A DNA stretch of 47,176 nucleotides from a virus, in the IMG/VR virus record IMGVR_UViG_3300045283_000085, positions 1-47,176 of that record; one strand, written 5' to 3'. The first letter of the stretch is position 1; each line of letters starts with the position of its first letter. This document shows positions 4,508 to 6,086 of the stretch, piece by piece. Made by a program: the position numbers and the translations under genes. A model generated the notes under the pieces. The model did no database searches. It was not told the DNA's origin and saw only the letters and a program-made list of their open reading frames with translations.

Positions 4508-4726
4508 TTACTCCAACGCACGGGTGACTTTGGTTTCGGCTTGCGTCAATGCAATGCTGGCCTTTTCCCAATTGCGCGCGGTTTGTGGCTCCTGCCAATT
4601 AGCGCGCAAGTGTTCGGCCTTGCCTTCGCATATGACGGCCAGCGCTGCCGTCATCGTGGACAGCCCGTACATATCCACCATTTGCTCCAACGCGATTGCA
4701 TCGCCTTGGGTTAGTTGTTTGCTCAT
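4508..4726 (-). CDS. Small helical unknown protein
   Basis: 72 residues, almost entirely predicted helix (GDAIALEQMVDMYGLSTMTA, then AEHLRANWQEPQTARNWEKA). The ATG at 4726 follows CTAGGAGCTACACGA. Its leader is made by the hammerhead ribozyme: cleavage would leave a 25-base 5' leader with a 5'-hydroxyl. Function unknown. Confidence 0.65.
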   Translation of the reverse strand: MSKQLTQGDAIALEQMVDMYGLSTMTAALAVICEGKAEHLRANWQEPQTARNWEKASIALTQAETKVTRALE

Positions 4727-4745
4727 TCGTGTAGCTCCTAGTTGA

Positions 4746-4800
4746 AACACTGACACGCCCACCTAGGCGTGTTTCGTCCTTACGGACTCGTCAGAGTGTT
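4746..4800 (-). ncRNA. Hammerhead ribozyme (type I topology)
   Basis: The leftward transcript contains every canonical hammerhead part in order. Stem I strand AACACU is at 4800-4795 and the core CUGACGA (CUGANGA) at 4794-4788. Stem II GUCC/GGAC with a GUAA tetraloop spans 4787-4776, followed by GAAA at 4775-4772. Stem III CACGCC/GGCGUG with a six-base loop spans 4771-4754, then U16.1 (4753), C17 (4752) and the pairing strand AGUGUU (4751-4746). Stem I is the open helix. Predicted cleavage is between 4752 and 4751, after GUC. Stem I overlaps the upstream stop codon, so cleavage would separate the 129-residue and 72-residue cistrons. Confidence 0.95.
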
Positions 4801-5188
4801 AGTCGATTGACCACGGGGCCGTGTCATATCCAGGCAATTCGCTAATTGCGACCGATTTCAATGCGCTGATAATTTTCGCCTCACGCGATGCGCGCCAGTC
4901 CTGCACTTCGCACGATTGATAGTCCAAGCATTGCAGCGCCTTGATCGCTTCCACGGCGGTCAGTTCGCGCGCTCGCGATGGACGCCAGACAAACTTTTCA
5001 GGCTCGCTTTGCGCTTCTGGCTTGTGCGCATAGCGATAATTCACGCTCGCTATGTTCGCATCGAGTAACAACTGGCCAAGGCGCTCTGGATCATCGGCCA
5101 TCGTGTCTGACGACAATTGACGATGGAAGTGATTCGCCCAAGTGACAATCGCGTTTATGTGCGCTTGATCCACAACGAAAGCGCTCAT
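4799..5188 (-). CDS. Unknown protein, 129 residues
   Basis: Not recognised. Residues 8-60 are helical (AIVTWANHFHRQLSSDTMA) and the C-terminal half contains REAKIISALKSVAISELPGY. The ATG at 5188 overlaps the TGA of the gene before it (ATGA), so the two are coupled. The TAA stop is embedded in the 5' strand of the hammerhead ribozyme, so ribosomes reaching the stop could hinder ribozyme folding. Confidence 0.7.
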   Translation of the reverse strand: MSAFVVDQAHINAIVTWANHFHRQLSSDTMADDPERLGQLLLDANIASVNYRYAHKPEAQSEPEKFVWRPSRARELTAVEAIKALQCLDYQSCEVQDWRASREAKIISALKSVAISELPGYDTAPWSID

Positions 5189-5787
5189 TGCTGCACCATC
5201 GCGGGCACTGGGTGCGCTTCAAAGGCAGTCATTGCATCGTAGTCGGCCAGTAGTTGCTCCAAGCGTTCAGCGTCCTGATCTGCGCTATCGGCATTGCCCG
5301 TGAACTGCGGAAACTTGGCGCGGTATTGCGTGGCATGTTCGCGCGCTCGTTTGGCGTTGCTTTCCGCTTGCTGACGACTGACAAGGCAGCGTGTACCCCA
5401 TAGGCCAGCCATTTCACGAATCGGCGTGAAGCCATCGATGCTGGCGGGATAGCGATTGATAAATTCCCAATACGGACCTTCGAAGAAGGTGCGCCAGCCA
5501 TCGGTCACGCGTTGCTGTGCAGTGAGTACGCCATTCACGCAGGTATAGCGATACTCCGTATCGCCGTGATGCTGGTGCGAATCCGTGAGTTCGGCGCGGC
5601 CATTGGCGCGGATGAATGCCTCCGTGAATCCGCCGTGCGTGTTACCTGCGAAGTGGTGCGCCTGCCAAAAGTAATACGCGGCCCCTGTGGGATAGCCATC
5701 GTGATGAATGTACAACGTCAGGACGGGATAGTTCGGCCCCGAACGCGTGAAGTGCTTTGCAAAGCTATAGGTAGCACGCGTACTCAT
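5185..5787 (-). CDS. Unknown protein with HHDGYP motif
   Basis: 200 residues. The N-terminal 110 residues are aromatic and beta-like (TLYIHHDGYPTGAAYYF, with further Tyr/Trp-rich strands); residues about 140-180 form a charged helix or coiled coil. I recognise the HHDGYPTGAAYYF pattern as one that recurs in proteobacterial phages but know no function for it. The frame extends upstream, but the ATG at 5787 is preferred because it overlaps the stop of a 25-residue ORF that has a good ribosome site. Confidence 0.7.
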   Translation of the reverse strand: MSTRATYSFAKHFTRSGPNYPVLTLYIHHDGYPTGAAYYFWQAHHFAGNTHGGFTEAFIRANGRAELTDSHQHHGDTEYRYTCVNGVLTAQQRVTDGWRTFFEGPYWEFINRYPASIDGFTPIREMAGLWGTRCLVSRQQAESNAKRAREHATQYRAKFPQFTGNADSADQDAERLEQLLADYDAMTAFEAHPVPAMVQQ

Positions 5788-5861
5788 GCTTGCACCATGC
5801 GAACGAGTGGACGGGAAAGCGTGTAGCCGGTAATGCAGCACGCAAGTAGAACGAAGGTCAT
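5784..5861 (-). CDS. 25-residue leader or mini membrane protein
   Basis: ATG at 5861 after TTGGAGCTACCACT, the ribosome sequence shared by this operon, and TGA overlapping the next ATG (ATGA). The peptide is hydrophobic at its N-terminus (MTFVLLACCITGYTLSR). It may be a real mini membrane protein or a leader that couples translation to the 200-residue gene. Confidence 0.55.
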   Translation of the reverse strand: MTFVLLACCITGYTLSRPLVRMVQA

Positions 5862-5892
5862 AGTGGTAGCTCCAAGTGAGAGTGAAAGTCCC

Positions 5893-5914
5893 TTCATTGC
5901 TAGCGGGCAATGAA
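5893..5914 (-). other. Leader hairpin of the leftward operon
   Basis: Perfect 8-bp stem TTCATTGC/GCAATGAA with a six-base loop, 31 bases upstream of the first leftward start. It lacks the TTGCAC/CTGGAATT flanks of elements E1-E4 but has the same placement before an AGCTACC ribosome site. No T-run, so not a terminator. Confidence 0.5.
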
Positions 5915-6086
5915 AGTAACGCGGCAAACTTAGCACGCGTGGCTGTCAGGTGTCTACTGATTGTCACTGACGACTGTACTAACTTGCTAAACCCGTCACA
6001 GAAGGACTAGGCTCGCAGGGGCGGAGGGGCGGCGGCAGCAGACAAAACTGTGCTTCTTAGTCCGGTCTGTGTCAGTCCGGTCTTAC

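Follow-up and report, generated by a model that had tools for sequence, protein, structure and literature searches.

The stretch of viral DNA considered here, the whole 47,176-nucleotide record IMGVR_UViG_3300045283_000085 (the window), carries a hammerhead motif at the junction of two small genes, and the question that it raises is what a self-cleaving RNA would do between two cistrons of a phage. Hammerheads share the consensus C3UGANGA9, G12AA14, the pair A15.1-U16.1 and H17, set among three helices, and they cleave themselves after H17 to give one product ending in a 2',3'-cyclic phosphate and another beginning with a 5'-hydroxyl group. The window is a tailed-phage contig, encoding the large subunit of terminase, a major head protein, a tail protein, RecT, a RecE-like exonuclease and repressor-like genes, and the motif sits within a leftward run of small genes without assigned function.

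Anatomy and gene setting of the motif

Read directly, the minus strand from 4800 to 4746 comprises a complete type I hammerhead, AACACT-CTGACGA-GTCC-GTAA-GGAC-GAA-ACACGCCT-AGGT-GGGCGTGT-C-AGTGTT. Its core is exact at C3 U4 G5 A6 N7 G8 A9, G12 A13 A14, A15.1-U16.1 and C17, and is surrounded by the three helices of the class: stem I of six pairs, stem II of four and stem III of eight, the last being U-G. Stem I is open and stems II and III are closed by loops, the arrangement that defines type I. The first-pass annotation had described just such a canonical hammerhead in the leftward transcript, with an exact core, three helices and a GUAA tetraloop, and had placed the predicted cut between 4752 and 4751, leaving a leader of 25 nt to the ATG at 4726; both the description and every coordinate proved correct. 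It had also noted that stem I overlaps the upstream stop codon, and indeed the TAA at 4801-4799 runs into stem I (4800-4795). The features of the locus are as follows.

4746-4800, minus: type I hammerhead, whole motif (sequence; R2 covariance model, 64.9 bits, E 9.4e-18)
4795-4800, minus: 5' strand of stem I (AACACU), of which the first two bases belong to the upstream stop UAA (sequence)
4788-4794, minus: core CUGACGA, C3 to A9 (sequence)
4776-4787, minus: stem II (GUCC/GGAC) with GUAA loop (sequence; RNA fold)
4773-4775, minus: core GAA, G12 A13 A14 (sequence)
4753-4772, minus: stem III, A15.1-U16.1 and seven more pairs, loop AGGU (sequence; RNA fold)
4751-4752, minus: predicted cleavage site after C17 at 4752 (established hammerhead chemistry)
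4746-4751, minus: stem I, 3' strand AGUGUU, with the predicted new 5'-OH end (sequence)
4745, minus: U1.7, which probably contacts the stem II loop in the tertiary fold (loop/1.7 counts in the family)
4727-4751, minus: 25-nt leader of the predicted downstream product, with Shine-Dalgarno AGGAG (sequence; placement survey)
4508-4726, minus: downstream gene, 72 aa, no assigned function (ORF; 73% identical homologue in L177)
4799-5188, minus: upstream gene, 129 aa, no assigned function, its stop overlapping stem I (ORF; 97% identical homologue in L002)
5185-5967, minus: operon gene before the 129-aa gene, 260 aa with a GTG start, family start MSTRATY (homologues in L019, L032 and L022)
1808-1825, minus: terminator-like hairpin and U tract, putative end of the leftward operon (consensus match only)

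That the genes around the ribozyme are early genes, as had been supposed, is plausible; the label itself is without support, since neither the 72-aa nor the 129-aa protein matched anything in PHROGs or Pfam. The terminator-like hairpin with its U tract at 1825-1808 is a strong one and directly follows the final leftward gene of the operon. No tRNA genes were found in the window. Covariance model and pattern search returned a single hammerhead copy in the window, and hence the hammerhead is not a per-gene rule here.

Chance controls, search models and the wider viral family

The hammerhead is the minimum free energy fold of its sequence (-21.6 kcal/mol, z -2.8), with 2 of 200 shuffles equally good. 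When 80 nt of upstream context is included, the thermodynamic model gives stem I a probability of only 12%, so competing folds exist. A covariance model, R2, was built from 45 viral hammerheads, with the window and six of its relatives (L002, L019, L022, L031, L032 and L035) left out and L008, a more remote gene-sharing contig, retained; it scored the window motif at 64.9 bits (E 9.4e-18) and found no second match in the window. Simulated windows of matching dinucleotide composition, 400 in all, yielded no match to a mechanical descriptor that requires the exact core.

Beyond the window, a pattern of stem I plus core matched 30 viral contigs, nearly all with complete hammerheads; applied to 257 billion bases of cellular genomes, it gave 26 matches and no hammerhead among them. 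A pattern limited to the core yielded at least 146 distinct viral matches and is the fair test, because no pairing is demanded in stems I and III. Among the matches listed, stem II was fully paired in 145 of 146, 82 closed as type I and 42 more as type III, and the remaining 22, inspected by eye, mostly resembled type III forms whose stem III is short; no shuffled flanks of these matches closed as type I (0/2920). Across an alignment of 56 sequences, 14 of 16 pairs changed on both sides and 99.9% of cells were paired; the covariation of 0.83 (0.15 when shuffled) is inflated by the descriptor that gathered the 132 family members, which itself demands pairing, a fault from which the core-only test is free.

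The first-pass annotation had proposed a check with the Rfam hammerhead models, and this check came back empty at the gathering level of Rfam 15. The closest partial scores, for RAGATH-1-hammerhead (RF03152; 25.8 bits, gathering threshold 56.3) and Hammerhead_3 (RF00008; 22.3 bits, threshold 48.5), fall far below both cut-offs. None of the hammerheads at 12 related loci reaches any Rfam gathering threshold either, and this shared failure points to a gap in the Rfam models. Silence of Rfam is the sole point in favour of regarding the motif as chance hairpins that resemble a hammerhead; against the E-value of the R2 match, the 400 empty simulated windows and the absence of type I closure in 2920 shuffles, that reading retains next to no probability and is refuted at the sequence level; the hammerhead is genuine, as first claimed.

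The family further displays a coupling between the loop of stem II and position 1.7 beside stem I. With a four-base loop (mostly NNAA), U stands at 1.7 in 86 of 89 members, and with a five-base loop, A stands there in 24 of 27; the window, with its GUAA loop and U at 4745, follows the four-base-loop members. For the tertiary docking of hammerheads, one A-U Hoogsteen contact can be enough, and the coupling, as a pattern of sequence, would fit a stem II loop that docks on stem I. Such docking gives natural hammerheads their speed (PMC6155905). The five-base-loop variant, often UCAAU and with A in place of U at 1.7, occurs at L062, L066, L075, L121, L134, L144 and L151, and this coupled change resembles the exchange of one tertiary contact for another. 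Type III hammerheads make up a further large group in viruses, many of its members having a conserved GUGUGU/GAGUGN-like stem I loop; its loci include L068, L074, L085-L087, L093, L099, L103, L119 and L124-L127.

Placement relative to genes

For a survey of placement, ATG frames of at least 30 codons were counted, with random positions in the same loci as controls. Among the type I hammerheads, 114 of 132 (86%; 35% for the random controls) have such a frame starting no more than 60 nt past the predicted cut. The median distance is 27 nt (interquartile range 24-33), and a Shine-Dalgarno-like site is found in 86 of these 114. The type III-like hammerheads are similarly placed; 58 of 61 lie 5-80 nt ahead of an ATG frame, again with a median of 27 (control 40%). 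As the two types share a spacing of about 27 nt, what is constant is a cut position between genes just before the ribosome site, and this holds whichever product keeps the ribozyme. No common function was found among the genes behind 73 hammerheads. Given the same placement in about 130 viral relatives, intercistronic cutting is the best reading of the locus. The co-directional junction, the location on the coding strand and the shared placement thus uphold the intercistronic position of the processing site that had been proposed for the window, the cutting itself having the standing of a hypothesis.

On the other side, the longest upstream frame terminates within the ribozyme, or on the first nucleotide of it, in 82 of 132 cases (62%, against 14% at random positions), the preferred sites being the foot of stem I at offset -1, mostly as UAA (31/121), and the core UGA (23/121). 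Stops at such preferred places might indicate a switch coupled to translation, a coupling already conjectured in the first-pass annotation, whereby a ribosome ending the upstream gene melts the ribozyme and the cut is made only if that gene is poorly translated; the ribozyme would then act as a sensor of how well the upstream gene is translated. The motif itself, however, supplies a UGA and often a UAAC, such that any frame entering it tends to stop, compact packing of phage genes would also explain the overlap, and there is no sign of regulation; the switch is judged unlikely.

Close relatives and rearrangement around the ribozymes

In the closest relative, IMGVR_UViG_3300046725_000025 (L002), a gene product 97% identical to the 129-aa protein is likewise followed by a hammerhead, and at this orthologous junction all three stems differ in sequence from those of the window. 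The stop codon of the 129-aa gene is the core UGA in the relative and the UAA over stem I in the window. A second hammerhead of L002 lies ahead of its MSTRATY gene. The 72-aa gene, found 3' of the ribozyme in the window, is located 5' of both hammerheads in IMGVR_UViG_3300046725_000025, which means that genes have changed places around the ribozymes, as if cassettes of small genes had been moved about them. In L177 (5001-6597, closest relative), the order of the 72-aa and 129-aa genes is reversed with respect to the window (4508-5188). At L019, L032 and L022, a homologue of the 260-aa gene stands directly before a hammerhead.

These comparisons bear on the view that the motif is a functionless relic or a selfish RNA element. 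A function for phage hammerheads is hypothetical and the adjoining genes vary, as that view would have it, yet the stem sequences are replaced over time whereas their pairing, the core, the loop/1.7 contact and the spacing to the start codon all persist, and L019, L032 and L022, at protein identities of 41-44%, retain a hammerhead behind the MSTRATY-gene homologue. It is the least probable of the alternatives to intercistronic cutting that accept a genuine hammerhead.

When their whole records were searched, seven gene-sharing relatives were each found to hold 2-5 clustered hammerheads, versus one in the window. RNA excised between two such copies would bear a 5'-OH and a 2',3'-cyclic phosphate, and the ribozyme itself, or an RtcB-type ligase, could in principle join these ends to give circular or re-spliced mRNAs, an idea that had been raised by Perreault et al. 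(2011; PMC3088659). Among neighbouring hammerheads of one phage, 27 of 48 cases do have stem I strands able to cross-pair at five or six of the six positions, compared with 13% between different loci. This excess is equally explained by shared ancestry within a phage, from which circularization through stem I cross-pairing is indistinguishable, and on that ground the candidate was rejected; all six positions match in just 7 of 48, the single copy in the window leaves no segment to be excised, and circular or spliced products were sought without success by Perreault et al. (2011). Ligation of this kind is therefore considered improbable, and the preferred reading continues to be a simple cut between cistrons.

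At L022, L031, L032 and L035, a tRNA gene encoded on the opposite strand lies no more than a few kb from the hammerhead array. Neither half of the window had a megablast match among phages, a plasmid search with the window was likewise negative, and none of the terminase relatives in GenBank (RHph_N65, Mae-Yong1326-1, phiAO1 and ctsTn925) has such a hammerhead. A BLAST match to Rhodobacter RcPutin was dismissed as it is not a hammerhead.

Proposed mechanism

The motif is proposed to be a self-cleaving type I hammerhead that separates or insulates two neighbouring phage genes at the level of RNA, and a probability of roughly 0.7 is assigned to this reading. Upon transcription of the leftward operon, the RNA would fold and the loop of stem II would dock on position 1.7 of stem I, whereupon the transcript may cut itself co-transcriptionally after C17 at the gene junction. 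The downstream product would be an mRNA with a 5'-OH that starts AGUGUUUCAAC and possesses a 25-nt leader holding the Shine-Dalgarno site, and the upstream mRNA would keep stems II and III as a structured 3' end that carries a 2',3'-cyclic phosphate. What the sequences themselves establish is the motif, its covariation, the placement across the family, the stop overlap and the loop/1.7 coupling; the cut, the ends of its products and any effect on gene expression are predictions. The likely purpose would be the insulation of small neighbouring genes, each with its own leader and its own decay. Removal of the upstream RNA raises the predicted accessibility of the start site from 0.55 to 0.60 on average; this change is too small for cutting simply to unmask the ribosome site, and unmasking was rejected as the benefit. 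By analogy with RiboJ, insulation or altered decay appears the likelier gain.

Relation to known systems

RiboJ is a self-cleaving insulator placed ahead of a gene, where it raises transcript and protein levels in Escherichia coli (PMC6206723). It is engineered and follows a promoter, whereas the ribozyme of the window is natural and lies between two genes, and hence the analogy is one of function only. The type I hammerhead of Schistosoma mansoni has the same core, an open stem I and a stem II loop that docks on stem I (PMC6155905); it differs in that the contact in the window is seemingly made by the single base 1.7 next to a six-pair stem I, not by a large internal loop, and in residing in satellite DNA and not in a phage operon.

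The closest precedents are those of Perreault et al. (2011; PMC3088659). Hammerheads were described as flanking single genes in prophages, in clustered arrays, and long phage transcripts were proposed to be processed into gene-length mRNAs; phage-type arrays cleaved in vitro and when expressed in E. coli, and intergenic hammerheads were reported in phages PaP3 and Bcep176, together with an array at ardA of Agrobacterium. With the covariance model used here, one hammerhead was found in PaP3, between orf67 and orf66 of a leftward operon, which is consistent with its being the intergenic one of that report. The earlier assertion that no intercistronic phage hammerhead had been described is contradicted both by this literature and by the PaP3 match; the ribozyme of the window adds one to a kind already described. 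It resembles the Perreault systems, whose hammerheads flank single genes or short blocks, in its position beside genes, with transcript cutting as the proposed role, and in its viral setting with co-directional neighbours on the same strand. It differs as one canonical type I copy free of core variants, compact (six and four pairs) and with a four-base loop. Multiple flanking copies, frequent in that kind and not required, are absent from the window, and PaP3 also has one. Spacing to the start codon and overlap with the stop come from the present analysis and were not found in the available part of PMC3088659.

What seems of lasting value at the level of the family is the placement, the stop overlap, the loop/1.7 coupling and the blindness of Rfam, though the literature search covered open-licence papers and these may be described elsewhere. 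What hammerheads do in bacteria and phages was characterized as unclear in 2011 (PMC3088659), and a 2017 review, which noted how persistently they are associated with phages and small ORFs, called their role open (PMC6155905); the placement rule, the regular short leader and the stop overlap turn this into measurable predictions. A broader proposal would make compact hammerheads of types I and III the usual gene separators in many lineages of tailed phages, natural counterparts of RiboJ at a fixed distance of about 27 nt before the start codon, with the moment of cutting set by ribosomes that terminate at the overlapping stop; as a whole it is tentative and rather doubtful. If true, it would reveal a general, protein-free layer of mRNA processing in phage gene expression that Rfam-based annotation misses; Rfam 15 failed on all members tested, and annotation that relies on it would overlook the group.

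Two isolated phages contain the same type I motif, unannotated in their records. In Xanthomonas phage RiverRider (L183, 3998-4051), the motif lies beside a tRNA cluster. In Cellulophaga phage phi19:3 (L184, 3994-4046), it is situated between gp051 and gp050, and as this phage is cultured, it offers a testable system.
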